Below, piece after piece: positions 14,924-64,000 of a stretch of 64,000 nucleotides of DNA. The notes under the pieces are model-generated. The model searched no databases. It was not told where the DNA came from and saw only the letters and a program-made list of their open reading frames with translations. How positions within the stretch are numbered: the stretch's first letter is position 1; each line of letters starts with the position of its first letter. This stretch comes from Liolophura sinensis (Eukaryota; Mollusca; Polyplacophora; Chitonida; Chitonidae): positions 32,539,385 through 32,603,384 of the forward strand of contig NC_088295.1 of assembly GCF_032854445.1 (NCBI RefSeq), written 5' to 3'. Both the position numbers and the translations under genes were made by a program.

Positions 14924-17900
14924 CTAAAACAAAGAATGGTCGGCTCATTTGTTTGCTTGATCAAGAATTTCACTTATATTCAATAATGTCACGAGCATTT
15001 TCACTTATATTTAATAATGGCACAAGCATTTTCATTTATATTTAATAATGGCACAAACATTTCACTTATATTTAATAATGGTACAAACATTTTCATTTTT
15101 GTCAGGTTCATGAGTGGAGGATGTTGGAGTGCTCGGAGGTAACCAACAACATTGGCAAAAAACCTGGCAAGCCTCTTGACTTAAAGCCATAGCCAAATGA
15201 GAGCTGGATTTGAACATGCAACCTGACTGGTCAAGGGCAAGGTAGTTGCAACAAGCCCGCGCCTTAACCATCTGAGCAAGCGTCTCCCCACCTAGGACAG
15301 AACCTGGGTGTTTCACACACGAGACAGATATCGATAATCACTTGACAAAAAATATGTCAAATGTGTAGTGATATTATAATAAGTTTCAACCCTACTATTA
15401 ATTTGAGAGATTTATTTATATGACTGACTATTGCTTCATATTTAGTAACAGAAGTCAAGTTATATTTTTAACTGATACAATGCTGGTCAGTTTCTCGAGG
15501 CGGAAACCAGATTGTCCAGTGTAAACCATGGACCTGTAGCAAGTTAGTGCTTTACCACAGGTGACGTATAGATTTATTTATTTAATTGTTATGTTATTAT
15601 GCCATCCTAAAGTACATTTCACTTATATGATGATGGGAGGAAAATAGGTATAGCTCAGGGGAAATCCACGACTATCTGCAGGTTGCTGTCAGGCCTTCCC
15701 ATGTGGTTTTCAAAGAACGTTGGACTGAGCACACAGTCACACAAGCCACATCAATCGCTTTAAACTGTCACCAAGGCCCAACAAACAGTGACAACACAGA
15801 AGATTAACTTAAGCTGGTATTTTCACTTATATGACAGCAGACAGGCATTTTAATACTACAGTAGTATGAGTGAAGAGCCTGAGTGGCCAAGTAATGCAAT
15901 ATATGAGAATGTTCAACTGCTGTGAGGTTTTTAGGTAGAGGAAACCACAGCACTGTACAAGTTACATATATGTGACAAACCTATTTACACATATATAAGG
16001 TCATAAAAGCTGAATTCAAACAAATAGCCTCTGACTGGTCAAATGGCAATGGTTGAACTATAAAGGCAGTCCAGACTGCCAGAAAGGCTGAGCGTGAGCC
16101 AGATGTATATACAGGTATATACATATATATATACATCAGGTATATATATTTGTTCTGGCTTAGCAACAGGCCCAACATGCTTAGTAACAAAAAGAACATG
16201 ATGTTCTCTGGACTTAGCATGCACTGTTAGGCAGACATATTCAGTATTATGATTTGAAAAGTCTTGTAAGCACATACATGTACACATTCAGGTGAGTGTT
16301 TCAGATAACCCAGGTAAGAATTTGGACTGATTGGGTCAACTACAGTATGATTCAACCTTGAATCATGATATGATTACTTCAATAAGATTAAAACAAGGGT
16401 CATGTACACCAATATATTGGGCCTATTGATCAAGAAACCACAAGTTAGTTTCACTCTATTAATGGTGTGTCAATAATCAATAAATCAGCTTTAATTTCCA
16501 CGCAGCAAATCTTTAACGTTTATTCTTCACAGGAAGACTATGTACGGTAGAGAATATGCTAAAGAAGCCAACGGTGCACAGTACCTCAGTCTGCACCATG
16601 CGTGGTCTGTGATTTCTCATCGTCAGAACAATCTCATAGATGTCAATGGTGATGTCAGATTCACCTGAGAGGTCATAGAGTTTCTCACGGATTTGGTCAA
16701 CGGCGATGAATGACCCTGTCCTTCCCACACCAGCACTGGAAACAAAGTACGTGCACAAATATTGCCCTGAGAAACACTGGAACAATTTCAAAGCAAACAC
16801 ACTGAAACTTCCTAAGGCAGCTGACTGTTGAAGTCACTTTTACACTATACACATCCTCACTGAAAAACAACTTTTTGGCTATAGTGTACTGTTTGTCAGT
16901 TTATATGCATACTACAGTATATAAATGCCCTGTGGCCATATTTAGCTGAAAACACATGCAGCATCCAAAGTAATTAAAATTAATTAAAAAATTAATGTGG
17001 GTGTGGGTGAGATGGTGTGAGATGGTGTGTGTCTTATTAACATGATTAACAGGAATTATTTATATTTATTTGACTGGTGTTTTAATGCTGTACTCAAGAA
17101 TGTTTCACTTATATGACGTAGGTCAACAATATGGTGGGAGAAAAGCGGGCAGAACCCAGAGGAAACCCCTGATTGTTGGCAGACCTTCCCACACACAACC
17201 ACAGAGGAAGCCAGCATAAGCTGGACTTGAACTCACAGTGACCGCATTGGTGAAAGGCTCCAGTGTCTTTGCGCCATGCTGGCACGCTAACCACGGAGGC
17301 CATGAAGATGAAATAAGATGAGATTGTTTGATTGTAAACACTTATCAGAAGGTGGTTCATTTATTGATAGAAGCAAAAGATGTAGTAGAGCTTTCTGAAC
17401 TGTCAATCAAGAACATGCAATTGACAAATCATAAGCAGTATTACTGCAAATAAGTCAACCAGATGTCCCACACTTTGTTTACAAATGTTCAATTTTTTGT
17501 GATGTCATGAATTCGAAACTATTTTCACTTGGAATGAAATGTAACATTATCACAAGAAGGGGTGGTGGGACATTTGATAGGTAGGATCTATCCATTTTAT
17601 AGGCAGTAGTTGGTGGTTTTTACTAAAGCTTACATTGTGTATTATTTACCACCATCATTAAGTGCAACAACTTCAATGGTACACTTAGTACAACCAAATT
17701 ATTCTCTCTAGCAGCATTATTACATTCATCTCTTAATACGCAACTGGTGACACCAGTTAAGAGACAGGGCATGTGTTCTATAGACAGTATACACATATAC
17801 ATTGTGTGAGCTGTATGCAAGGTTTAATTACCTGCAGTGTATGAGGAGAGGTCCACTCATGTTTGGCCTCACATGGCTTCTGACATCCTGAAGAAAGTTC

Positions 17901-20900
17901 ACCATATCTTCACTGTCTGACACTCCAAAGTCAGGCCACATTAGATAGTGAAAATGCTTCAGTTTACGTCTTATGGAGCCCTTCAGATCAAACATAATAC
18001 ATGCAACTATTTGAATCTGTCATTCAATAATTTATTTATTTATTTGATTGGCGTTATATGGCGCGTTCAACAATATCTTCCACAATGAGCGGAGGAACCA
18101 GCATCAGCTGGATTTGAACTCACAGCGTTCATTTGGTGAGAGATTCCTGGGTCATTGTGCTTCACTAGCACGCCATCCCAAACATATGGAGGCACTACCA
18201 TTTGTAAACCATTTTTTTTTTAAAGTTTGATTAATTTTCATAGAAAATATAATGCTAGCATCAAAAATATCATAAGATCGTACGATGAAGATTCACATCT
18301 ATACAACTCACCACACAGATAGAAAACTCCCTCAGATCATGTGTGTTGAGGCTGGAGTAGGATATAGATTCACATCTATACAACTCACCACACAGATAGA
18401 AAACTCCCTTAGATCATGTGTGTTGAGGCTGGAGTAGGATGAAGATTCACATCTATACAACTCACCACAGAGATAGAAAACTCCCTCAGATCATATGTGT
18501 TTTGAGATTGGAGTATGATGTAGATTCACATGTATACAACTCACCACAGAGATAGAAAACTCCCTCAGATCATGTGTGTTGAGGCTGGAGTAGGATATAG
18601 ATTCACATCTATACAACTCACCACACAGATAGAAAACTCCCTTAGATCATGTGTGTTGAGGCTGGAGTAGGATGAAGATTCACATCTATACAACTCACCA
18701 CAGAGATAGAAAACTCCCTCAGATCATGTGTTTTGAGATTGGAGTATGATGTAGATTCACATGTATACAACTCACCACAGAGATAGAAAACTCCCTCAGA
18801 TCATGTGTGTTGAGGCTGGAGTAGGATGTAGATTCACATCTATACAACTCACCACACAGATAGAAAACTCCCTCAGATCATGTGTGTTGAGATTATAGTA
18901 TGATGAAGATTCACATCTATACAACTCACCACAGAGATAGAAAACTCCCTCAGATCATGTGTGTTGAGGCTGGAGTAGGATATAGATTCACATCTATACA
19001 ACTCACCACAGAGATAGAAAACTCCCTCAGATCATGTGTGTTGAGGCTGGAGTAGGATGAAGATTCACATCTATACAACTCACCACAGAGATAGAAAACT
19101 CCCTCAGATCATATGTGTTGAGATTATAGTATGATGAAGATTCACATCTATACAACTCACCACAGAGATAGAAAACTCTCTCAGATCATGTGTGTTGAGG
19201 CTGGAGTAGGATGTAGATTCACATCTATACAACTCACCACACAGATAGAAAACTCCCTCAGATCATATGTGTTGAGATTATAGTATGATGAAGATTCACA
19301 TCTATACAACTCACCACACAGATAGAAAACTCCCTCAGATCATGTGTGTTGAGGCTGGAGTAGGATGTAGATTCACATCTATACAACTCACCACAGAGAT
19401 AGAAAACTCCCTCAGATCATGTGTGTTGAGATTATAGTATGATGAAGATTCACATCTATACAACTCACCACAGAGATAGAAAACTCCCTCAGATCATGTG
19501 TGTTGAGATTATAGTATGATGTAGATTCACATGTATACAACTCACCAAAGAGATAAAAAAAACTCCTTCAGATCATGTGTGTTGAGATTGGAGTATGATG
19601 TAGAGTATGATATACAACTCACCACAGAGATAAAAAAAAACTCCCTCAGATCATGTGTGTTGAGGCTGGAGTAGGATGTAGATTCACATCTATACAACTC
19701 ACCACAGAGATAGAAAACTCCCTCAGATCATGTGTGTTGAGATTATAGCATGATGTAGATTCACATCTATACAACTCACCACAGAGATAGAAAACTCTCT
19801 CAGATCATGTGTTTTGAGATTGGAGTATGATGTAGATTCACATGTATACAACTCACCACAGAGATAGAAAACTCCCTCAGATCATGTGTGTTGAGATTAT
19901 AGTATGATGTAGATTCACATGTATACAACTCACCACACAGATAGAAAACTCCCTCAGATCATGTGTGTTGAGGCTGGAGTAGGATATAGATTCACATCTA
20001 TACAACTCACCACAGAGATAGAAAACTCCCTCAGATCATGTGTGTTGAGGCTGGAGTAGGATGTAGATTCACATGTATACAACTCACCACAGAGATAGAA
20101 AACTCCCTCAGATCATGTGTGTTGAGGCTGGAGTAGGATGAAGATTCACATGTATACAACTCACCACAGAGATAGAAAACTCCCTCAGATCATATGTGTT
20201 GAGGCTGGAGTAGGATGTAGATTCACATGTATACAACTCACCACAGAGATAGAAAACTCCCTCAGATCATGTGTGTTGAGGCTGGAGTAGGATGTAGATT
20301 CACATGTATACAACTCACCACAGAGATAGAAAACTCTCTCAGATCATGTGTGTTGAGGCTGGAGTAGGATGAAGATTCACATCTATACAACTCACCACAG
20401 AGATAGAAAACTCCCTCAGATCATGTGTGTTGAGGCTGGAGTAGGATGTAGATTCACATCTATACAACTCACCACAGAGATAGAAAACTCCCTCAGATCA
20501 TGTGTGTTGAGATTATAGTATGATGAAGATTCACATCTATACAACTCACCACACAGATAGAAAACTCCCTCAGATCATGTGTGTTGAGATTATAGTATGA
20601 TGTAGATTCACATGTATACAACTCACCACAGAGATAAAAAAAACTCCTTCAGATCATGTGTGTTGAGATTGGAGTATGATGTAGAGTATGATATACAACT
20701 CACCACAGAGATAAAAAAAAACTCCCTCAGATCATGTGTCTTGAGGCTGGAGTAGGATGTAGATTCACATCTATACAACTCACCACACAGATAGAAAACT
20801 CCCTCAGATCATGTGTGTTGAGATTATAGTATGATGTAGATTCACATGTATACAACTCACCACAGAGATAGAAAACTCTCTCAGATCATGTGTTTTGAGA

Positions 20901-23900
20901 TTGGAGTATGATGTAGATTCACATGTATACAACTCACCACACAGATAGAAAACTCCCTCAGATCATGTGTGTTGAGATTATAGTATGATGTAGATTCACA
21001 TGTATACAACTCACCACACAGATAGAAAACTCCCTCAGATCATGTGTGTTGAGGCTGGAGTAGGATATAGATTCACATCTATACAACTCACCACAGAGAT
21101 AGAAAACTCTCTCAGATCATGTGTGTTGAGGCTGGAATAGGATGAAGATTCACATCTATACAACTCACCACAGAGATAGAAAACTCCCTCAGATCATGTG
21201 TTTTGAGATTGGAGTATGATATAGATTCACATGTATACAACTCACCACAGAGATAGAAAACTCCCTCAGATCATGTGTGTTGAGGCTGGAGTAGGATATA
21301 GATTCACATCTATACAACTCACCACAGAGATAGAAAACTCCCTCAGATCATGTGTGTTGAGGCTGGAGTAGGATATAGATTCACATCTATACAACTCACC
21401 ACACAGATAGAAAACTCCCTTAGATCATGTGTGTTGAGGCTGGAGTAGGATGAAGATTCACATCTATACAACTCACCACAGAGATAGAAAACTCCCTCAG
21501 ATCATATGTGTTGAGATTATAGTATGATGAAGATTCACATCTATACAACTCACCACAGAGATAGAAAACTCCCTCAGATCATATGTGTTGAGATTATAGT
21601 ATGATGAAGATTCACATCTATACAACTCACCACACAGATAGAAAACTCCCTCAGATCATGTGTGTTGAGGCTGGAGTAGGATGTAGATTCACATGTATAC
21701 AACTCACCACAGAGATAGAAAACTCCCTCAGATCATGTGTGTTGAGATTATAGTATGATGAAGATTCACATCTATACAACTCACCACAGAGATAGAAAAC
21801 TCCCTCAGATCATGTGTGTTGAGATTATAGTATGATGAAGATTCACATCTATACAACTCACCACAGAGATAGAAAACTCCCTCAGATCATGTGTGTTGAG
21901 GCTGGAGTAGGATGAAGATTCACATCTATACAACTCACCACAGAGATAGAAAACTCTCTCAGATCATGTGTGTTGAGGCTGGAGTAGGATGAAGATTCAC
22001 ATCTATACAACTCACCACAGAGATAGAAAACTCCCTCAGATCATGTGTGTTGAGATTATAGTATGATGTAGATTCACATGTATACAACTCACCACAGAGA
22101 TAAAAAAAACTCCTTCAGATCATATGTGTTGAGATTGGAGTATGATGTAGAGTATGATATACAACTCACCACAGAGATAAAAAAAAACTCCCTCAGATCA
22201 TGTGTGTTGAGGCTGGAGTAGGATGTAGATTCACATGTATACAACTCACCACACAGATAGAAAACTCCCTCAGATCATGTGTGTTGAGGCTGGAGTAGGA
22301 TGAAGATTCACATCTATACAACTCACCACAGAGATAGAAAACTCCCTCAGATCATGTGTGTTGAGGCTGGAGTAGGATATAGATTCACATCTATACAACT
22401 CACCACAGAGATAGAAAACTCCCTCAGATCATGTGTGTTGAGGCTGGAGTAGGATATAGATTCACATCTATACAACTCACCACAGAGATAGAAAACTCCC
22501 TCAGATCATGTGTGTTGAGGCTGGAGTAGGATGAAGATTCACATCTATACAACTCACCACAGAGATAGAAAACTCCCTCAGATCATGTGTGTTGAGGCTG
22601 GAGTAGGATATAGATTCACATCTATACAACTCACCACACAGATAGAAAAACTCCCTCAGATCATGTGTGTTGAGGCTGGAGTAGGATGTAGATTCACATC
22701 TATACAACTCACCACAGAGATAGAAAACTCCCTCAGATCATATGTGTTGAGATTGGAGTAGGATGCTGGTTCCACAACCACCTCTCCATACTGCTGCACG
22801 CCATCACTCTCATCTGGCCAGTACTTTACGCATTTATCCTGAAGAGCAAATGTTTACATCTTAATGAGGGCAGGTGTTCACAGCATGACTCCTGTACAGG
22901 TATAGCACTTATCATCAATGTTCTTTTTCATCTTTCTGTTGACGGTTGCACTGTGTATTCAAGAATATTTTACATACTGCCACTGCTTGAAACAAACCAA
23001 GCTCCACCCAGAGGAAACTATGTCTATACCACCTCATCAGGTAGCTGAAACTGGCTCTAGGTGTGCAGTCTCATTTGCAAAAGATTAGTCGTCCAGAGGA
23101 AACCACGTCTAGCACACTGTCAAACAGCTGAAACTGTCACTGGGTGTGCAGTCTCTTTAGTCAAGACAAAATGGCATAGAGGAAACCAACTATCATACAG
23201 CATCTCCAGGCAGCTGAAACTGACTGAGTCAGTAGTGTCATTAGTCAAGAATTAATAGTCTGAAATGATTTGTGCTGGAGATCTAACTTTAAGTTAATAG
23301 CCATTGTTGAGGAGTCTGCCACACCTGAATTTGCAGTCTGAAAAGGTTCTATTGGCCTAGATCATAGGTAAAATTCTATACATGGCTATATACACTTTTC
23401 TAGAATACATATTTTAATATATATGTTTTCCTTGTCACAATAAAGACCATTTCATGCCTCCTAGATTAAAACTGTTTCTTTTTACAATATTTATTTGATT
23501 TGTGTTGTTTGGCACACTCAAGAATATTTCATGTAAACAACTGCTGTCAAAATTATGGTGGGAAGAAACTGGGTTCAGGGAAACCTATGACCCTCTGCAT
23601 CTTTCTGACAGACCTTCCCGTGTACGGCTGGGGATGAGCTGGACATAGCAACCGCAATGGTGAGAGGTTCCTGGGTCATTCCACCGTGCTGGAATGCTAA
23701 CCACCATGGCCATGGAGGATCCCTTTGCTATGATATTGCTGCAATACTGTTTAAGTGGCACAACAATGATTCATTCATTGGCTACCTGTCCTTTCTCCTG
23801 CAGCTTGGTCAACATAACAATAATGCTGACATCCTGCTCCCAGACCATTCTCCAGAAATCCTCCAAAGTTGCATTCAAAGGACCCTGGGCAGCAATGTAC

Positions 23901-41900: not shown

Positions 41901-44900
41901 CCCAAAAAATTAAATCCAGTACCACTTGTGCGACTAGAATATCATCATGGTACTGGTCATTTAAAGTTGTCATTGAATCGGTTTGTCAATCAAGACACAT
42001 GTCAACTTTGGTCAGAATCAGGGAATTCTGGACTGGTAGTTACATTGTCACCTAAGTCACTCAACTTGAGTTGCTGTGTCACCTCGAGTCGAAATCCCTG
42101 AGTGATGGCACATGTCACAGCACATGGTCAAAACATTCATGATGTGAACTCTAACAGTTCTTTCTCTCCTTAGTTAGAGAGTACACTGTATGCTTGTTTT
42201 TAAAGTCTGCTAAAACGTTTTTGAACTTTGTGAGGTTCACGTGAATAACTGTCTGACTTGTGGAATGTTTGCTTTTGAATTCCTGACAAAGTTTCAAACT
42301 GTCACACAATCATCATCAACAACACAGTATTAAAGCCTACTGGTAGGCATAAATTAGTGGTATAAGCTCCGTTCAAAGGAAGGTTTCTTTGACCTGTGAT
42401 CACAGGAATCATACTAAGCTTAGGCAAAAGTGGGAAGTGGGTACTTGTTCAGCTGATTATCATTTTTAATTTCTTTTCTTAGCATGGCCGTCTGATTGAC
42501 GATCTCTTAACTCTTCATTGTCTCAGGTCGTACAAAAGGTAGTAGGGGCCCAAACCATGGAGATTGAAAGAGTGTTGTGCTACAATGGCGATGCGTCAAC
42601 TTTCAGTTCTAAGTCATAGTATAGGCCTACATGTATTTTGAAACAAGCTACATTTTGTTGATCGATGCAAAAGGAACTCAAGCTATACACATACATATGC
42701 TTTATGTTAATTTTCACCTGTACTACATTCATCCGGTATGAACTTAATGGGAACCAATCACTTTCATGCTTTTTATATACAAGCTCCCACAACATGATTG
42801 CTAGAGTCCAATCGGAACTTTGTGAAGATGAGATACAGTGTATGTTTCTTTTACTTCTTTCCCATAAATTTATGATGCGCTTACCCATGTGCCTAAAAAA
42901 GCAAAGTAAACCTTGAGCCCTGAATTTTATGGAATAAATGTACATGTTCATATACACCGAAGAACTTTGCACAGCGTAACATTTATGCTACTTCCAAAGT
43001 AAACAGATGTGATTTATAAAAAATCAAAGCAGTGATGAAAATCACTTACATTCTCTCAAGCTGGCTCATGTATTACGACTGTATTTATTTACCATCTGCA
43101 TGAGCTTCATTCCAACTGTTAACACAGCTCAAGGGGCAAAACACACCGCATGTGTCCCAAACAGCAGTGCTCACATGCACTGTATAATTTTCACATAGGT
43201 GCTATGTGTTTCAAACCACCATTCATAGCTGGCACTTTATACTTACATCCTATTTCTAAACGTGAAGTTTGACTAGTTAAAATGACAAGTGGACAAGACT
43301 GTGTGGAAATCCAATACACTGGTTGAGTTTAAAAAATTTATTTTGCAGTAACCAGCAGATGTACAGAATCGGCGTTACATTTCTTTTATTTTTTATATCA
43401 AAGAACAGAAATCCCTTTACTAGGACAACGCTTTATTCTGTCAAATTATGGAAAGCTGTGATTCAACTTCATGCTGAGAAGTATTTCCTGTTTTAATACA
43501 ACACTAAGGTTTTACTGAATTGTGACCGCGTTGTGAATTATTGGAGCATGTTCACCGAATATCAAGATTTTTGCACACTCTGATCCAGTGAAATGAACAG
43601 ATTTCTGTTTGTGCTGTGGTGGCCTGCTGGGCACATGTGAGGTGAATCCATGGGTTGGATTGTTTGAACACCTGTCTGCGCATGTATTATATGTCACTGT
43701 AGCGATCACATATTCATCAATATAAAGCAACACCCAGTTCTGCTGAATCTTTGATGTAGTGCTCTGAAAGCTGTCAATGTTGGCCTACATACAATGTATT
43801 GTTGTCGTTTTCGGCATGGATGTAGCCAGCTAATGCATCTAGGGTTACACCCAGTCCTGCTTAATCTTTGATACAGTTCGGCAAGAGCTGTCAATGTTGG
43901 CCTACATGTATCCCCTCCCATTGTTCCTGAGTGTTGTTTTAGCGGACACCGACAACTTTAAGTTGAGGAAATCTTGATTAAAAAAACAAACAGGCACTTC
44001 AAATTATGGACTTTGATTTGTTTTTTCTAGCACAAAAGACAAATGAAGCTTTACACCATTTGTTTTCATTCCAGATTTCAAATCACGAAAAGTGAAGAAA
44101 AAATGGAGGATATATGGGAATTAAAGGAAAATTCTCTCCAGCCAGGAGGTAGATAGCATTAATATATATCAACCTGTTACACTTGCATGTTTCCATGCAG
44201 TAGGTCATGCAGCTATTAGCATACACTGTCAATAAGTGTCAGATCTTATTCTCTATTAACCAATTGTCATCCAAATGCAATGTTGTCTTGGAAAGATCTA
44301 AGCTGACCCCACTAAAATAAATGATTGTTTATGGCATAACGCAATTTCTGTGCTGGACACTCCAGCTATATTGTGGTGCTTAACCCCCAATACATTCTGA
44401 CTCTCAGGCCAATCGTTTTTAGATGTGTGTATTAAGTAAGTATACTGTGAATTATTGAATCTACCAGCGATAACAAGCCATCTGTTATGACTCCAGAATC
44501 CTCTCCCACATCCTGAGTCAATGTGTAGTTTGTTTAGACCAGGGAAAAGTTCTGGCGGACTCCAACATGTTCTTAGCTCTGTGCACTAGTCACTGTCACA
44601 TTTGTGTTCTGTATTACTGACCTCACTTACCTAGGTTCCTCTCCTAGATCCATCAGAGTCAGTGTGTAGCTTGTAGCACTAGGGAAAGGCTCTGGCCGAC
44701 TCCAACATACACTCACATTCTTAGCTCTGACCACTGTCACATTTGTCTTTACTACTGATCTCACTTACCAATGATAACACAGCGACTGTCTGGTCGCGAT
44801 TCCTCTCCCAAATCCACCAGAGTCAGTGTGTAGCTTGTAGGACCAGAGAAAGGCACTGGCTGACTCCACCATACACTCACATTCTTAGCCCTGACCACTG

Positions 44901-47900
44901 TCACAATTGTCTTTATTACTCACTTACCAGCAATAACTGGACTCCTGTCTCGCTGTGGTTCCTCTCCCAAATCCACCAGAGTCAGTGTGTAGTTTGTAGG
45001 ACCAGGGAAAGGCACTGACAGACTCCAACACGCTCAGTCCACTAGTCACAGTCACATTTGTGTTCTTTATTACTGATCTCACTTACCAGCGATAACTTGA
45101 TCCCTGTCTCGCTGTGCTTTCTTTCCCAAATCCACCAGTCAGTGTGTAGTTTGTAGGACCAGGGAAAGGCTCTGGCGGACTCCAACATGCTCTGTCCACT
45201 AGTCACTGTCACATTTGTGTTCTTTATTACTGACTTCACTTACCAGCAATAACTTTCTTCCTGTCTCGCTGTGGTTCCTCTCCCAAATCCACCAGAGTCA
45301 GTGTGTAGTTTGTAGGACCAGGGAAAGGCACTGACAGACTCCAACAAGCTCAGTCCACTAGTCACAGTCACATTTGTGTTCTTTATTACTGATCTCACTT
45401 ACCAGCGATAACTTGATCCCTGTCTAGCTGTGCTTTCTTTCCCAAGTCTACCAGTCAGTGTGTAGTTTGTAGGACCAGGGAAAGGCTCTGGCCGACTCCA
45501 ACATGCTCTGTCCACTAGTCACTGTCACATTTGTGTTCTTTATTACTGACTTCACTTACCAGCGATAACTTTCTTCCTGTCTCGCTGTGGTTCCTCTCCT
45601 AAATCCACCAGAGTCAGTGTGTAGTTTGTAGGACCAGGGAAAGGCTCTGGCCGACTCCAACATACACTCACATTCTTAGCTCCTTCCACTGTCACACTTA
45701 TGTTTTTTATTTCAGATGGCACTGTAAAAAAACAATAGCAATGAATGATTGCTCTAGATCAAAAAGCACATGTAAAGAAGATAAATGAAACATCAATTGT
45801 TCCCCTTTTTCCTGTCTATACAATTACTTTCAGCTGAGTGTTGAAGTACATGTTCTCACAAAGATTAAAAAGTCAAGAATGAGAGGGTTATGAGGTTATC
45901 TACAGAACAGTTACAAGTACATAGATCTCTCAAAAGCAGCTGTTACATTGTTACTTTTCAGCATCATCATAGAAAAGAAACAAATGTTATTTTTCATCAA
46001 ATTTCTGTTGTTCATCAAATATGAGAAATGATATATAAAATCTTGCTTTCAAATCATAAAATCTCAAGTTAAATAATTTCTGGTCTGAAATTTTGGGGGG
46101 CAAGACAATCATCACTTTTTCTCAATATGTCAAAAAAGAATTGTGTTCAGTTATAATCAAGAATATGTGGATGGAATGTAACCTTGTGTTGGTTTAGACA
46201 AAAATGATAGGACATACATGTGCAGTAGATAATGAAACTTCATAATCTGTATTACACGAATTTCCTTTCAATAGGCCCAGAAATTTGTCTGTTACCACAG
46301 TTACAGAAATTAAACTTATTAATATATCTACACGTATTGGATGCAAAAAAGAGGAAAAGCCAGGGACCCATTTAGGTCCCCTTGTAGGTGCAGGGAAATG
46401 CCCTAGTAGAGGGTTCAGGTGAGAAAAATTGATGCTGAATTGCAGTTTTTACATTAAAAAAGATAATCAGAAGCTAGATGTGGTGCATAATAAAATTATA
46501 TATTTGTATCACCATAACATTTGGAAAGGTGCAAGAGCACCTGGGAGCTCAACAAATAAGATCGTCTGTGACTGATTGATAGACAACGTTCCAAAAATTT
46601 ACTGATACCGCTACTGAGTAACTGAACACACCATACATGCTTTCTGCCCGTCAACCTCAATGTGGACTTCGTCCTGTGACCAACTTCAGCTGAGCTTGTT
46701 TTTCACACCATTGTCAACCTCTCTAGGTGATTTGCCTTTCTTTAAAGTTCAAAACATGACTGCTTTTATGCCATGAGCGACAGAGTCGAAACCACAGGCG
46801 CCTGTGCCAAAACCACTAACACGCACGGTCACTCAATGAGGAAATATCCATAACAACTGTTGTGATTGGTTGAAAATTTTTTCATAAATGGCCATCTCCA
46901 TGAGTCGGCATCATTCCAAATGGACAAGATCTGCTGTGGAGACTTAAACAACACAGCAGTTCAGTGACGAGAGCGCTGAGGTGATATCCCCTGCTCAAAA
47001 AGGACCCCCAAGGCTTCAAAAAAGTGGAAATCTGTCGATCTTTGGAGAATTTTAATTTTCTTGTTAAAGAGACACAACAGTGACAACAGCAAGTAACTGA
47101 TAATAAGAAGATTTTGTGACCAATTAAAACCTGGGATTAAGAGGTGGAGGGATATGAAACTCTAGTCTTCTCGTTTCATAACGCGGCAGTCTGAGACTTA
47201 TTATCAGTATTATCGTTAATACACTTTCTGAATATACTAGTAGCACAGATTCTAGTGCTGAAAATTGGCTGAGACCACTGTAGGTTTCGAACCAGCGACC
47301 TCGGAGTCAGGCACCAAATCACCAGCAATACATGTTAACCAAATAAACCACTCGACCAAAAGGCCTTCCACAAAAATAGATGATCAGTAGACTTTACAGC
47401 GAAGCTGCATGACTCAAAAACCTGTCTGATATATTCACCTAAGGGAGTGGCATCATTTGTGATCATCAGAGGTGTAAACTGACATCTAAACCAGTCCGAG
47501 ATTTTATCTGATTAACTCACTAACCACAGGATCTTCAAAGAAGACATCGCTTAATCTTTGCCATAGAACTGTCAAAATACGCCTAGTCAACAACCCGATT
47601 CCAGACAACGTTACTGAGGTCATTATAGTACATGTTTGCTTACATATTAATTCAACTATCACGAATTCTTCATTTCTAGTGGTATGATTGAGAGTGTCGT
47701 CAAAATCGCGTCTTTTTGAATGTCAGCTTGATCTGGCCGACGGGATATTTTTTGGTTTTATTCAAAGAAATCCGCCCATCCCATGCCTGAACAACGCCGA
47801 CTTTTAATAAATGTGATTTCGGAAAATGTACCTATAGTAAATATATGTTTGTAATACACCATTTGCTGCATTTTTCTGTTGTTGAAAACGTCTGAAAAAT

Positions 47901-50900: not shown

Positions 50901-53900
50901 AAAGTAAAAACAGTCCTATGTCATGTAAGGCAAACTTTGTCAACATTAATCTACCAATCAACAGAGGCACAAATGACACCTGTTTCCCTTAACAGCTTTT
51001 GAAGTTCTTCAACTCCTCAGTTTTCTCCATTATTTGTTTACTTTAAATTACTTTTTGATTCTTTTTTCTCCTGCCTATGATACAGTAAATGTGATGAACA
51101 TTTTGATAGCTATATATCACATGATACTTTTGGACATTTCTTACCTTTTTTTGTAGTGATGAAAGAATTGGACCTTGAACCTTCCCTATTACTAAACAGT
51201 GAAACTGATAAAAAGACAGGAACATGACAACACTCCTCAGCACTTAGCACTGAGGGCTGTCACTGAGGAGTGATTAGCCTTAAGGGTCCGAGGAATGAAA
51301 ACAGAGAAAATCTTGATTGATGACAGGCTAATGGATTATCCCAAACTAAGGTATCTTACCCTCAGGATTCGTTCTGACGGTCAGCGTAGCCGGATCAGGA
51401 TTCTCATCTACACCTTCAGATTTCAGATACATCTCCAGTCTATACTCAATGTATGGGAACAAGTCTGTGACATTGTACGTGAAGTTCATCTGGCTTTTGC
51501 CAAACTGCTCATAACTCACATTTCCACAAAATGTCTGCGTTTGTGACTGAGGAAGACAAATGAGTAAAGTTTTAAACAAACATACTGGTATAATGAGAAA
51601 TTTCTGAACCACCATTAATATATTGCCAATAAGTATTTGACAACCTCTGTGTGGATATGGTCTGATATGAAGTGGAAACTACTTGCCTTCCATACTCTGG
51701 AAGCTGAGTACAGGGAGCTAAATATACATATGTATCAATGACTCAAGGGCCGGATAAAGGCATGGTGGATATACAACAATACATATACAGTAAAACTTGT
51801 TTGAACTGACCACGCCCGGTACTGCGAGAAAATTTTGGTTTTCACAAGATTTTAGGGCATTTTTGAAGCTTTGTCTGTCAAAAAAGGGATTTGTTTCATA
51901 CACGCAATTTTTTCTGTCACATTCGCCAAGGTAAAACTGCTTCTTAGGATATCTTTGCCCACAATGGACACAATGACCAGCTCTGTGCCAGTTTCACGTA
52001 AGACCTACTGACTTTATCAGTCGCGCATTTATCAGTCGCGCATTTCCATACAACGTCTCTTGGTTATTCCTAATGGGTCGCCCCATGACTGATTCAATGA
52101 AATATGAGAACTACAATGTATAGTGACAGAGAGTGACCTTAATGCATTATTTCACATCCTGAATAGCTCAGTCACCCCACTTCTTGACTAAGCTGAGCAA
52201 TGTACTGGTCAAACTGAAATTTAAGAGAATGTGTTCACTAATCTGAGAAACTGTTTATTAAGACGATTATCTCCCTTCTCTGACCTCTTTTGCCCCCCCC
52301 CCCCCCACAGTGGTAAAGGCAAGGGTTGGGATTATACAAAAGCCAGATTATACAAAGCCAGATTATACAAACTGGATTAATACGCACTAGATACGAGGAC
52401 TGGAAATCATGGATGGTATTCACAATTATAGATAAGTGCAGGTTTATTCAAATAAAATAACATGGGTTCCAAATGGAGATAAAAGTGGACTATGTGGCAT
52501 GGTTGGCACATTGACAAGATGTCATTTCCAGAGGCGTCGGTGTTAGAAGTTTCAATATACACAAATGTACCCTTGAGGTTTTTATAAATTACATGTATAG
52601 TACTCACTGCTACACCATCTTCTGTAAAGTGAACCTGTCTAAGGCAGCCATTTTCCTTGAACACCAGCAGGCGAAAATGCTTTACATTGGTATCCGTCCT
52701 CTCCCATATCAGCTCAAAACTTCGTGATGTTTTTGACGTTAGTGAGATGTTGACTGGGGAAGGACCTGAGAATTACGACAGCAAAGATATTTTTTTCCCA
52801 AAAAAAATCCCTGGAGATCGACCATGACCACATGTCCAGTGTTTAAACAAATGTTATTAATTATTTAGTATCAATCTGTATCATGTGGTATACAACATTG
52901 CTTAATTTGTCACACTGACCAAGCCATAGAGAGAAAATATTTATTGTATAATCCTGCAAAATTAGTAAATGAAAAAAAAAACTATAAAGTTTCTGTTCGC
53001 TACAGGTACACTATTACTATACACACATCAATACATGACTATATATATGCATATACACTTGATGCATACTTGTATATAGCTTAACACTGCCAACTGGGTA
53101 TGCTACTTGTATGTAGCTTAACACTGCCAACTGAGTATGCTACTTGTATGTAGCTTAACACTGCCAACTGAGTATGCTACTTGTATGTAGCTTAACGCTG
53201 TCAACTGGGTATGCTACTTGTATGTAGCTTAACACTGCCAACTGAGTATGCTACTTGTATGTAGCTTAACACTGCCAACTGAGTATGCTACTTGTATGTA
53301 GCTTAACACTGCCAACTGAGTATGCTACTTGTATGTAGCTTAACGCTGCCAACTGGGTATGCTACTTGTATGTAGCTTAACACTGCCAACTGGGTATGCT
53401 ACTTGTATGTAGCTTAACACTGCCAACTGAGTATGCTACTTGTATGTAGCTTAACGCTGCCAACTGGGTATGCTACTTGTATGTAGCTTAACACTGCCAA
53501 CTGAGTATGCTACTTGTATGTAGCTTAACCCTGTCAACTGAGTATGCTACTTGTATGTAGCTTAACACTGCCAACTGAGTATGCTACTTGTATGTAGCTT
53601 AAAACTGCCAACTGGGTATGCTACTTGTATGTAGCTTAACACTGCCAACTGAGTATGCTACTTGTATGTAGCCTAACACTGCCAACTGGGTATGCTACTT
53701 GTATGTAGCTTATCTCTGCCAACTGGGTATGCTACTTGTATGTAGCTTATCTCTGCCAACTGGGTATGCTACTTATATGTAGCTTATCTCTGCCAACTGG
53801 GTATGCTACTTGTATGTAGCTTAACACTGCCAACTGGGTATGCTACTTGTATGTAGCTTAACGCTGCCAACTGGGTATGCTACTTGTATGTAGCTTAACA

Positions 53901-56900
53901 CTGCCAACTGGGTATGCTACTTGTATGTAGCTTAACACTGCCAACTGAGTATGCTACTTGTATGTAGCTTATCTCTGCCAACTGGGTATGCTACTTGTAT
54001 GTAGCTTAACGCTGCCAACTGGGTATGCTACTTGTATGTAGCTTAACACTGCCAACTGGGTATGCTACTTGTATGTAGCTTAACACTGCCAACTGAGTAT
54101 GCTACTTGTATGTAGCTTATCTCTGCCAACTGGGTATGCTACTTGTATATAGCTTAACACTGCCAACTGGGTATGCCACTTGTATGTAGCTTAACACTGC
54201 CAACTGAGTATGCTACTTGTATGTAGCTTAACGCTGCCAACTGGGTATGCTACTTGTATGTAGCTTAACACTGCCAACTGGGTATGCTACTTGTATGTAG
54301 CTTAACCCTGTCAACTGAGTATGCTACTTGTATGTAGCTTAACACTGCCAACTGAGTATGCTACTTGTATGTAGCTTAACGCTGCCAACTGAGTATGTTA
54401 CTTGTATGTAGCTTATCTCTGCCAACTGAGTATGCTACTTGTATGTAGCTTAACACTGCCAACTGAGTATGCTACTTGTATGTAGCTTATCTCTGCCAAC
54501 TGAGTATGCTACTTGTACATAGCCTAACACTGCCAACTGAGTATGCTACTTGTATGTAGCTTATCTCTGCCAACTGGGTATGCTACTTGTATGTAGCTTA
54601 ACACTGCCAACTGAGTATGCTACTTGTACATAGCCTAACACTGCCAACTGAGTATGCTACTTGTATGTAGCTTAACACTGCCAACTGAGTATGCTACTTG
54701 TATGTAGCTTATCTCTGCCAACTGAGTATGCTACTTGTATGTAGCTTAACACTGCCAACTGAGTATGCTACTTGTATGTAGCTTATCTCTGCCAACTCAG
54801 TATGCTACTTGTACGTAGCCTAACGCTGTCAACTGAGTATGCTACTTGTATGTAGCTTAACACTGCCAACTGAGTATGCTACTTGTATGTAGCTTAACAC
54901 TGTCAACTGAGTATGCTAATAGTATGTAGCTTAACACTGCCAATGGGGTATGCTTGTTTCTGCACCTGAGTGGAAATGTACAGGACTTACGCAGCTCTAC
55001 ATCATATGTCTGAGAGATTGAGGAGTTGACGTTGTTAGACTGGGCCTTCAGCTTTAGGTGATATAACCCAGACACCGGGGCATGCAAGACATAACTGTGA
55101 TTCTTCTTATTCTGGTACGTAATCTCCTCTTGCCTAGAGAATCCACTTGGTCCAGTAACCATCAGGTAGAATTTGTCCACCAATCCTGTCCCGTTTGTCC
55201 ACGTAAATGTGATTGTCTTTTCCGCAGAGGACGACGTATTTGACACATACACTGGTACACTAGGTGCTGAAATACCCCAAAGGATTAGCATATATGAATA
55301 ATGCTAAGTACAATGAATAATTAAAAGTGCATATGAATGTTAAAAGTTTCAAACATTTTCAATCCAAGAAGGGAATGCCTGACGTACATAAGCTGAGAGT
55401 TAATAATGATATCAGGAATTTGTAACGTAATTGGCAGCGTTCAGGATTACAATGTACCTTCAGTTTTCACTAATGATCATCTGACCTGACCCATATAATA
55501 AAAAAGAAATCAATTTTGACTGAATGGTACCTGAGAAAATAACAATTTTGGTGCATGAGCCAATCAAATGATTAAATACATGTATTTAGTGACAACATGG
55601 ACTAACAAATTAGTGACATTGATATTTGTCTGCTGTATTTACAGTAACATGTATAAGCTAAGCTGGATATCAAGAAGAATTTCTGAGTTCAGAAACCAGT
55701 CAAACAATCCAGTCTAAAGTGCACATATCATTCTGAAGCCATTGCACAAAGCCTCAAATCTACCCTGACAACTTGTTAAGTCTTCCACATTTTCCACATC
55801 AGACACAAGAAAGCCATAAATCTGACTTCTTGTCAACAGATTCAAGTTCTCCTGACTGAATATTCACAAAAGTCACAGGATTAAAGATAAAAAATCAATA
55901 CATTAGTTCTGGAGATAATGTTTGTAAGCAATTCATGTATGTGATCTCTGACATCAAAAGTATATCAAAGGGCATCATGCCCACAATGTCATCGGGGTGG
56001 CCTAGCTGTAATGTATTTGATATGGCTCAGTAGTTTAGGGCAGAGATATAGCACGGCAAAATCCTATGAATTTTAGCCTGATAAAGTAGGTCCAAAGGCA
56101 TGCTGACTGCACATTAGTTCACCAAATGTTATAACAATCAGTTCTGCTGGGCAGATAGACGGCAAATGAGTATATAATATAACTATGACAATACCCTTCA
56201 GCTGTGTTGAAAATAAACTGCGTGTGCATTTTTGACTGAACGCTTCCTTAAAAAATTGGGCTGACAGCTTGTCTCCATGACCTAGCAAACACGATGAAAA
56301 GCTGAGGAACCCTTCAAATTACATAGCCTAGTCTGGGGTTCAACCCTTATGCTGTGTGCTTTGTTGTTAGGAGTAGCACTGTTCTTTTTCCAGAGAAACC
56401 ACCCTTGAAAGAAAATGGTTTTCAGAGACTTTCAAGAGCTTTCAAGAACTATAATGTCCTATATTTCCAGGGTTTCAATGACCACTAAGTTAATGTACAA
56501 TCCGTCACATGAAATTTAATGGATACTAGTATATGAGTAGGTATTCTGATACATGATTGTAAACTTGATGTAGCTTATATGCTAGTCCAATATTTCAAAC
56601 ACAACGCAATATGATATTTAACATTGGGAACCTTGTAATTCAATGAGCCGTGTCCCACTCTCTTCCATATTGTGCAGTTCTCTCCGCATAACATGACACG
56701 TTCAGTTTAAACAGAACCTTAATATAGTATCTGAACACAACAGAAAACTATTAAAACATTAAGTATGAAGCACAATGTTTCTGGTGCTTGAACCAAGCAC
56801 CACGTCTATCTCCACGCAAATTAAAATTTAAGAATAGATGCCTGGAGGTCTCATTTTTATAAACAACTACTTAAATTAGTACAGTCAACATCAGAATCAC

Positions 56901-59900
56901 TGTCATTCTGATTTGTTATTTCCATATATATACATGTAAAAAACTCTTTGACACAATTTGTGGTTTCACTTGATAATCCCAGCAACATACATGACATACA
57001 CATGGTACATGTATGTTTTGGTGAAAAATTTAATCGCTTATAAATGCTTAATGGCCTCACCTACAGTTTTAAGATTACTCCTGTTGCTAAGGCCACTGAA
57101 ATTGGACCCCGATCTGGTGGACACTTTGACAGTGTACTGTGCTCCTGGTGTCAGAGCGGAGGACAAAGCAGGCACAGTGATGGTTTTCTCTGCTCCATTG
57201 TGAACCGTCTCTGCAGTAACACCTTTTATCCCTGATGACACGGGGGTTGATCCTTGTCCTCCATACAGCTGCACACGAAGCCCATCATACCTACCAGCTG
57301 ACAGGGTAACTTTCACCTCAACACTGTTGGTAGTGATGGACAGAATCTCAACACCTGAGGGAGTAGCTGGAGCTGAAAGGACAACAGATTACGATGGAAT
57401 CAGGATCTTCAGATCTGTCAACATAAATAGTGTGTTGACGTGATTTGTGGATGGTGCAGTGAATGATTCTATAGCTGTTATCTGTAGTGCTATTACATGT
57501 AGGTAGGCAACTAAGCACTGGATTTAAACCTCACATGGCACACTTAGCATGTGCAAAGCAATAGTCTGATGATCTCTATATAAAATGCAAGCATTCTTGT
57601 CTGGCAGCAGTCTATTACTTCCACGATGAGAAATGTGTCAGTGTAAAAAGTTTACAACCATCCTACATGCTGTCACAATTGTTATTCTTCTCTTCTTCTG
57701 GCTGACCATTCTTCTGATCTGCATGTTCATTACCATCAGCTCCTAGGAAAAACATATCTGTTCTTTCTTCTTGTTATCTGTTGAAATAACATAGCTCCGT
57801 TGTTCTCTACTACTTTTCTGGTTGACAGTTCTCTTGCTACATAGAGTGTCAGACTAAATGGCAGCCAGTCGGCTCAAATTAAATGAGACTGTCTGCAGCA
57901 ATTAAAACATATCTGACTGGATTTAGCCATATAAAATGCTTTATGGACGCATGCTGATAAATTTGAAAAAGTGGCTGTGTTTTCTGAACTACACTGGGGT
58001 ACTACTAGTAGTAATAAACCATGAAACAAAGCTATTTTTCATTTGTTTTCCATGAATTTCCAACAGTTTTATTTACACAGCCACTTCCATCAAAGTTTTC
58101 ACTTCCATTTGATATTCGTTAAAGCCTGAAATTAGTGGCCCTGCATGTACATGTATGTTGCTACACTTTTGTTTACAGGCAATGCTTTCACACGGGGATG
58201 TCTGTGTGACATGTAGGCCACACACTTTACACTAACTATGCTTTATATTGGTGTGAAGGCTGCTTGATCAAAACTTAGAGCTACTCGTGTTCTACTCTCT
58301 CTAGAACTGTTCATGTGCCCAAACATGTTACAAATTCTGTCCCAGGAAGCATCAATCAGTGCATAATTGGGTTGTTTTCCCTCAGTCTGGAATATATATA
58401 CGCATTGTCCAGGGCACCCATCTTGGAATAATCAGGGGCAAATATATCCGTGCTCTGTGATTGCTCAATATTTGCACACTGAATGGCAAGTCAGCATAGG
58501 GTGAGACAAAGGCTTAGATTTATTCAGTAAACATTTTTTCTTTTGCACAAAAACATTTGTTATTTTGTACTCACCATTTTGTCTGAAGTAAAATGTCTAA
58601 ATCTGATCTCTTGTTTTAAAAATGTTTAAAAGTGGCTGAAGTGTACCTGACCACAAAATTATAATCAAAAACTCTCAATGTTTTTATAGTGTATGTGAGG
58701 TACATCATTTACTTTTTTGTAAATTTCAAAGTTTCCAAGGTGTTCCTGAGGTACACCTTCTAAGAGTTGATTTTTTCTCAAAGTTGCTGAGGTGTATGTC
58801 AGGTACATTATCTCATGCTCAAAAATTTCTTTCCCAAAAGTTTCTTAGGTAAACCATTCATTTTTTTTTTAACCTTTCAAAGTCTCTAAGGTGTACTTGA
58901 GGTGCATTTTCTACGTGTTGATTTTTTTTTCAAAGTTCTGGAGGTACAAGTGAGGTATAGGCATATGGCTGGGGTATACTTGAGGTACAGTACACCTCAG
59001 ATAATACAGAAGGGGTGTACACCCTATATGCATCTCACACTAAGGAGTACATGAGGCGTATTCCCCATACATATCTCGTCTATACCTCACGCTGAGGTGT
59101 ACACCTCATGTTTGTAAGGACTACACAGTCTGCATGGGCTACAAATTCACAACTGTTGGATGGAATATGGACATGTAGTCATAAACTATATACAGTAGTC
59201 TAGGACATTAACACGGCAGGTCAGATATGAGCTTTGGCACCTACTGTATTACATGTACAGTACTAAGTATTTTGGTAGCTGATATATCAGTCCATTTCAA
59301 ACACAATGCAATATGCCTCTTTAACATTAAAAAAACAAGTACTTTATCTCAAAACAAATTCTTTTACAAGGACTTTTATAGCACTGATAACCTTTCAACA
59401 AAATTCAAGTAGCTTCAAGGCTTCAAAAACCAGTGGGAATGTTATAACTCAATGGGTCATGTTCGACTGTCTTCCAAACACTTCAGTTCTTATCTGCACC
59501 ACATGACATGTTCAGACAGAATCATGATATAGTATTCAGAAAACTATTAATATAAATAGTATAAAGCACTCTACAATGTTACATGAAAATAGTGGACAAA
59601 ATAAAACCAAATATCACATCTATATCCTTGCAAAAAGATTTAAGATTAGATGCTTAGGAATTTCACTTTTATAAACAACAATTTATATTGTTGTACAGTA
59701 TACTCAGCATCAGAATCAGTCTCATTACGATATGTTATTTATATTGGTACATATAATTAACTCTCACACTATATTTAATTAGTGACATCATATGTTATAT
59801 TTGGCAACATACATCACACATGTTTTGCGAATCTCTCACATAAACCATATGCCCTCACCTACAGTGTCAGGACTACTCTGGCCACTAAAAGCACTGAACT

Positions 59901-62660: not shown

Positions 62661-64000
62661 CTGAAAGGACAACAGATTACGCTGCAATCAGGATCTTCAG
62701 ATCTGCCAACATAAATAGTGTGTTGTCGTGATTTGTGGATGGTGCAGTGAATGATTCTATAGCTGTTATCTGTAGTGCTATTACATGTAGGTAGGCAACT
62801 AAGTACTGGACTTAAACCTCACATGGCACACTTAGCATGTGCAAAGCAATAGTCTGATGATCTCTATATAAAATGCAAGCATTCTTGTCTGGCAGCAGTC
62901 TATTACTTCCATGATGAGAAATGTGTCAGTGTAAAAAGTTTACAAGCCATCCTACATGCTGTCACAATTGTTATTCTTCTCTTCTTCTGGCTGACCATTC
63001 TTCTGATCTGCATGTTCATTACCATCAGCTCCTAGGAAAAACATATCTGTTCTTTCTTCTTGTTATCTGTTGAAATAACATAGCTCCGTTGTTCTCTACT
63101 ACTTTTCTGGTTGACAGTTCTCTTGCTACATAGAGTGTCAGACTAAATGGCAGCCAGTCGGCTCAAATTAAATGAGACTGTCTGCAGCAATTAAAACATA
63201 TCTGACTGGATTTAGCCATATAAAATGCTTTATGGACGCATGCTGATAAATTTGAAAAAGTGGCTGTGTTTTCTGAACTACACTGGGGTACTACTAGTAG
63301 TAATAAACCATGAAACAAAGCTATTTTTCATTTGTTTTCCATGAATTTCCAACAGTTTTATTTACACAGCCACTTCCATCAAAGTTTTCACTTCCATTTG
63401 ATATTCGTTAAAGCCTGAAATTAGTGGCCCTGCATGTACATGTATGTTGCTACACTTTTGTTTACAGGCAATGCTTTCACACGGGGATGTCTGTGTGACA
63501 TGTAGGCCACACACTTTACAATAACTATGCTTTATATTGGTGTGAAGGCTGCTTGATCAAAACTTAGAGCTACTCGTGTTCTACTCTCTCTAGAACTGTT
63601 CATGTGCCCAAACATGTTACAAATTCTGTCCCAGGAAGCATCAATCAGTGCATAATTGGGTTGTTTTCCCTCAGTCTGGAATATACATGCCCACTGTTCA
63701 GGGCACCCATCTTGGAATAATCAGGGGCAAATATATCCGTGCTCTGTGATTGCTCAATATTTGCACACTGAATGGCAAGTCAGCTTAGGGTGAGACAAAG
63801 GCTTAGATTTATTCAGTAAACATTTTTTCTTTTGCACAAAAACATCTGTTATTTTGTACTCACCATTTTGTCTGAAGTAAAATGTCTAAATCTGATCTCT
63901 TGTTTTAAAAATGTTTAAAAGTGGCTGAGGTGTACCTGATCACAAAATTATAATCAAAAACTCTCAATGTTTTTATAGTGTATGTGAGGTACATCATTTA

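Follow-up and report, generated by a model that had tools for sequence, protein, structure and literature searches.

The window analysed here, 64,000 nucleotides of the chiton Liolophura sinensis (contig NC_088295.1, positions 32,539,385 to 32,603,384 of the forward strand), carries what our own gene model predicts to be an FN3-containing receptor tyrosine phosphatase gene, with an intron occupied largely by a minisatellite that copies an exon end and its 5' splice site. The assembly was published as Liolophura japonica (PMC11068029) and its authors later corrected the species to L. sinensis (PMC12441733). With exon limits set by sequence and homology, the exon in question (22713 to 22838, minus strand) is a PTP-domain exon of 126 nt, which starts with GATAAA after the acceptor CTTCAG and ends in GTG before the true donor gtgagt, its last 53 nt being the parent of the repeat. 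The next exon (17832 to 17980, minus strand; acceptor CTGAAG/GGCTCC, donor TGCAG/GTAATT; translation ...LLIHC) holds the WPD loop and the catalytic Cys end, and the modelled intron between the two would measure 4,732 bp, the array taking up 4,433 bp of it. The joined translations of exon 22713-22838 and its neighbours match Y_phosphatase (PF00102, 8.5e-62), a family with 151 scored matches across the genome, and the best-scoring relatives of solved structure are receptor phosphatases, PTPRS and LAR among them. Three exons between about 57 and 63 kb pass the Pfam cut-off for fn3, and one falls below it; downstream on the same strand follow a membrane segment, recognised by eye (the Pfam scan of this piece gave below-cut-off matches only), and then PTP exons ending at a stop.

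Tandem Repeats Finder (TRF) places the minisatellite at 18280 to 22765 (minus strand; period 77, 58.1 copies including the exon end, 92% matches), a standard unit comprising 53 nt of exon end and 24 nt of intron, so that the unit straddles the exon-intron boundary. This bears out the original prediction that the array repeats the exon end, its gtgagt donor and about 20 bp of intron; the roughly 57 extra donors predicted to follow the true one in transcription order are exactly 57, giving 58 identical GTGAGTTGTAT donors in all, and the position of the array places the copies after the true donor. GGTGAGTTGTAT is likewise found 58 times on this strand, with a spacing of 77 in 52 of 57 intervals and of 78, 79 and 80 (three times) in the remainder. 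The GTGAGT hexamer is unbroken in every copy, and the stretch from -3 to +8 reads GTGGTGAGTTG in 57 copies and TTGGTGAGTTG in one. U1 scoring of all units, proposed as a check together with the original prediction, gives a duplex energy of -9.2 at each of the 58 donors; an equally strong energy is reached at 28 of the 3,971 minus-strand GTs of the window outside the array, and the density of strong donors is 12.9 per kb in the array versus 0.47 per kb elsewhere on this strand. One end copy appears to be the authentic exon, with the CTTCAG acceptor and an open frame, the rest being apparently intronic. Where the exon reads CCAA, 33 of the 57 units carry the acceptor-like word CCAG (CCAGCC).

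What the later donors would produce was read from in silico joins, in which exon 22838 was joined at each donor in turn and followed by 141 nt of exon 17980. The join from the first donor leaves all 89 codons open, while the joins from all 57 later donors end at one shared in-frame TGA inside the first extra unit, so that single use of an array donor would give a nonsense transcript. A mini-exon of 40, 41 or 43 nt, entered through a CTCCAG acceptor, runs into a stop in each of the 32 units that have the acceptor CTCCAGCC, and the one combination of three mini-exons that was tried stops as well; the mini-exon reading was rejected, every single inclusion being nonsense and neighbouring mini-exons lying only 37 nt apart. 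The array donors would hence yield nonsense products rather than merely frame-shifted ones, and the frame-shifted, phosphatase-dead isoforms envisaged earlier find no support. Taken as a whole, the original prediction is confirmed in its observation and partly supported in its interpretation.

In the array, known from one assembly, the 57 units represent 32 distinct sequences, the longest exact repeat is 206 bp, and no multi-unit block reaches three identical units (longest, two). The array therefore seems to have diverged and turned over, and not to be a fresh one-step expansion. The exon copy and its nearest unit are unlike at 2 of 53 sites; the average over the units is 7.1, a simple count that is inflated by indel-bearing units. 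A search of the 609-Mb assembly with a pattern of 33 letters and up to two mismatches, which skips very common words, did not find the unit elsewhere at this sensitivity; all 55 matches fall inside the array, and a dispersed satellite or transposon family was rejected on this basis. At the intronic array end lies CATCGTAC (18280 to 18287, minus strand), which stands in unit register with CATCCTAC in the exon (22765 to 22758) and agrees with it at seven of eight bp. Minisatellite birth is usually modelled as duplication between direct repeats of small size, and the array was likely born between these CATC[C/G]TAC direct repeats. Neither such an array nor GTGAGTTGTATA is found in the corresponding introns of the two closest paralogs (L001 and L002, at 32.77 and 32.95 Mb of contig C1; 3,850 and 3,870 bp), which share a different donor, ATACAT/gtaagt. 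The array exon ends two codons before these two paralogs do (REFSISV/ versus REFTITNIH/; L001 6340-6500), and the following exons share an aligned acceptor; the donor may have shifted. In L001 (2200-6800), the paralogous intron contains, in place of the array, retroelement-like coding remains recognised by eye.

A second exon-edge array is present in the same gene at 44630 to 45711 (minus strand). Its units of 157-159 bp (the last one 138) consist of exon plus GGTAAGTGA and provide seven donors, the first at 45559, spaced by 157, 159, 157, 159, 159 and 138. The parent exon (45560 to 45721, minus strand) begins with TGCC after the acceptor TTTTTTACAG and is FN3-like by eye only, there being no Pfam match for 45561-45719 or 45600-45719; when its donor is read through, a stop follows immediately. 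A protein search with this exon retrieved further copies on C1 at 32.65-33.09 Mb, and the window together with eight C1 loci was compared as nine paralogous loci, which have 7, 3, 8, 2, 1, 6, 2, 1 and 2 donors. At all nine, the copy nearest the 5' end begins at an AG acceptor and is stop-free; of the 32 matched pieces downstream, which are alignment segments and not whole copies, 11 contain stops (Fisher p 0.08 versus first copies). The loci thus differ in donor number, from one to eight, with a first copy that is still largely readable. In the eight first copies of full length, codon positions 1, 2 and 3 show 203, 153 and 259 differences. The first copy at one of the nine loci (L079 220-381) has a match that ends early (residues 1-40 or 1-44) and is perhaps frame-broken.

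Donor-side exon-edge arrays are apparently present in many genes of this chiton. A sample of 33 stretches was grouped from the first 100 matches listed in each of two spaced donor-word searches, confined to the first 12 Mb of C1; all except two of them (L019 and L030) have a TRF array bearing the word. An open reading frame (ORF) of at least 30 residues ends at the first donor in 18 of the 33 stretches, and 22 of 24 ORFs were scanned against Pfam (L028 and one L032 frame were left out). A Pfam-recognised exon end, above the curated cut-off, adjoins the array in nine stretches (SUFU, SNF2-rel_dom, Branch, Ank_2, Antistasin, DUF4457, Prominin, PTR2 and DNAPKcs_CC5). The SNF2-rel_dom match is marginal (25.4 versus a cut-off of 24.9 bits), and the match ends no more than seven residues from the donor in eight of the nine, the Branch match ending about 50 residues earlier. 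Two acceptor-word samples were also taken: TTTGCAG (20 of 22 stretches, a TRF array in 18; 10 of the 13 ORFs at the last acceptor scanned, with L067:1204, L068:1150 and L072:333 left out) and TTTACAG (20 of 25 stretches, 17 with a TRF array; all 10 ORFs scanned). One Pfam match above cut-off is counted for these 40 stretches, an RNase_H of retroelement type at L100, a place with no TRF array; nine in 33 for the donor words versus one in 40 for the acceptor words gives p 0.004. Furthermore, the longest ORFs crossing array edges on both strands were taken for the TTTGCAG set and for a set drawn with the word TGAGTGG, and 35 of 47 were scanned (for TGAGTGG and TTTGCAG respectively, antisense 11/11 and 11/11, sense 6/11 and 7/14); a YTV match at L074 was not counted as a host exon, being antisense, at 21.3 versus 21 bits, and with no significant stretch. 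In the whole genome, spaced GGTGAGT is found 4,537 times versus 2,479 for the reversed word, and the acceptor words 729 versus 413 (TTTGCAG) and 3,286 versus 2,722 (TTTACAG); the excess of spaced donor words over their reversed forms is not consistent.

The array in the phosphatase gene is most probably a neutral donor-side minisatellite of the type called a "mirage" in amphioxus, grown from an imperfect direct repeat of 8 bp and tolerated through first-donor splicing. The repeat formed by CATCCTAC in the exon and CATCGTAC in the intron would have made it possible for the exon end to be duplicated in tandem together with its 5' splice site, and slippage or unequal exchange would then have enlarged the array, always on the intronic side, until it held 58 copies. 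Normal splicing would use the first donor in vivo, and the array would be tolerated because this is the sole donor that leaves the phosphatase readable; the product from any other single donor would be nonsense and presumably degraded, and the array itself would be neutral. A wider reading, which we offer tentatively and hold to be more doubtful than sound, is that 5' splice junctions of this chiton are recurrent birthplaces of minisatellites, with donor-side mirages in maybe hundreds of genes and almost never acceptor-side ones. Copying of the donor would be survivable because the first donor still gives a message, and copying of the acceptor would not.

Several observations weigh against these readings. 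The case for first-donor splicing is built on genome sequence. At the paralogous loci of the second array, the contrast in stops between first and downstream copies is not significant alone, and several downstream pieces are stop-free. The contrast between donor and acceptor words has to be read with acceptor words being weaker markers of real acceptors and only part of the ORFs having been scanned. In the TGAGTGG sample (20 arrays, the first of 23 once two that also belonged to the donor set had been removed; a TRF array in 15 of the 20; all six ORFs scanned), 3 of 20 stretches are exon-associated (Dus, VWC and EGF_CA), which does not differ from 9 of 33 (p 0.50). TGAGTGG is a poor control, since the word can lie inside GTGAGTGG donors; in the Dus, VWC and EGF_CA cases the exon end and donor are inside the array, and the word is within the donor itself in two of the three. 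Spaced GGTAAGT is no commoner in the genome than its reversed word (2,497 versus 2,934). Finally, all 58 donors are intact, and the 12 of 77 positions left untouched would arise with a chance of 0.03-0.05, assuming 18-20 independent events, which is a weak hint of constraint. These 12 columns over the donor are the longest invariant run, and a run of this length was matched in 1,374 of 20,000 column shuffles, which is not significant. Nine exon-verified arrays elsewhere, most of which were fetched only in part, favour the neutral reading: in intactness, their donor words stand between 17th place among 88 windows and 39th among 46, and the word is neither clearly kept nor purged.

The same figures bear on the idea that the array is a regulatory decoy, in which many U1 sites compete with the true donor and slow splicing or divert it to nonsense, lowering the phosphatase in some tissues. 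The number, identity, strength and density of the intact donors would suit such a role, as would the nonsense outcome of single diversions, and decoy exons have been proposed in work on intron retention. A decoy is nevertheless unlikely, given that special conservation of the donor word is missing from the nine exon-verified arrays and not significant in the phosphatase array, that the sister array ranges from one to eight donors over nine paralogous loci, and that amphioxus mirages reportedly leave the mRNA unaltered (PMC3087553; PMC3902484). An artefact of assembly in the copy number or the existence of the array has to be considered, since long tandem arrays are error-prone and HiFi coverage is only 14x (PMC11068029). 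However, 32 distinct sequences among 57 units are at odds with it, and the HiFi reads, with a mean length of 8,347 bp (PMC11068029), exceed the array and could span its 4.5 kb, which makes this explanation very improbable. The 77-bp period, not divisible by three, would fit functional frame-shifted or repeat-inserted isoforms of the phosphatase, but a stop precedes the next exon with all 57 later donors, with all 32 single mini-exons and in the case of three mini-exons, leaving hardly any likelihood for these, the least of all the explanations weighed here. The suppression of premature polyadenylation by U1 is known as telescripting, and the donor density would be in keeping with protection of a long intron, in which U1 bound along the array either has this effect or keeps the RNA on chromatin. 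The intron is long mainly through the array itself, though, and with no other pointer to such protection we give it a very slight chance, a shade below that of an assembly artefact.

Other repeats and phosphatase sequences were encountered besides the two exon-edge arrays. At 57041-63900 of the window, the fn3 exons and their surrounding ORFs are present three times, 2.5-2.8 kb apart, representing a larger intragenic tandem duplication. A 37-bp array of 51 copies (53062-54954) starts a few tens of bases past an exon-like donor, AGCTGC/gtaagt; its unit does not contain that donor, and the ORF upstream of it has no Pfam match. On C13 (7959036-7960592), a stop-free frame of 891 residues with two PTP matches looks like an intronless, retrocopied receptor phosphatase.

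Donor choice among identical, close 5' splice sites is usually studied with few sites in constructs. With 58 equal donors in one gene whose exons look intact, the first alone presumably productive, and with nine paralogous loci that have one to eight donors of the second array, the chiton offers a useful natural test of how a donor is chosen, and the rule could be read from ordinary long-read cDNA. If 5' splice junctions are indeed recurrent birthplaces of minisatellites, animal splicing would cope with tens of perfect serial donor copies, and the array would be a ready-made test of a first-donor rule. The known range of boundary repeats is moreover extended to a mollusc, apparently in many genes.

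The original prediction knew of no described case of this architecture in a receptor phosphatase, which holds for receptor phosphatases within the literature searched; the architecture as such is known from amphioxus mirages and human boundary repeats, the only cases of exon-boundary tandem repeats in that literature, where none was found in a mollusc. Intron gain through tandem genomic duplication of AG/GT proto-splice sites, as in the Rogers model and described for the potato RNA-dependent RNA polymerase (RdRp) gene (PMC4974935), similarly duplicates a stretch that bears splice signals. By contrast, the chiton array appears to enlarge one existing intron, single mini-exons being predicted to be nonsense. 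De Grassi and Ciccarelli (2009; PMC2812944) described internal tandem repeats at the exon-intron boundaries of genes in human segmental duplications. Like the chiton array, these are minisatellites that overlap the boundary and are able to bring splice sites; they have units of 30 bp on average in four copies and are linked to new introns with transcript support, whereas the chiton array would merely lengthen an intron already there. Closest are the amphioxus mirages, minisatellite-like tandem duplications of exon-intron boundaries described in Adh3 and in the globin genes BflGb6 and BflGb9, for which normal splicing was suggested (PMC3087553), with splice-site-bearing repeats of a like kind in lancelet PGBD5 and troponin C (PMC3902484). 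Tandem minisatellite-like copying of an exon-intron boundary is common to both systems. The mirages have units of 10-72 bp (Adh3) or 150-160 bp (globins), are unstable in length, occur on both sides of the exon and keep splice signals in many, not all, units; the chiton cases are donor-side, in a mollusc, with splicing deduced from the genome alone and the signal kept in all 58 units. By its architecture, the phosphatase array can be placed with the mirages, to which it would add a mollusc host, 58 intact donors and, apparently, many genes.

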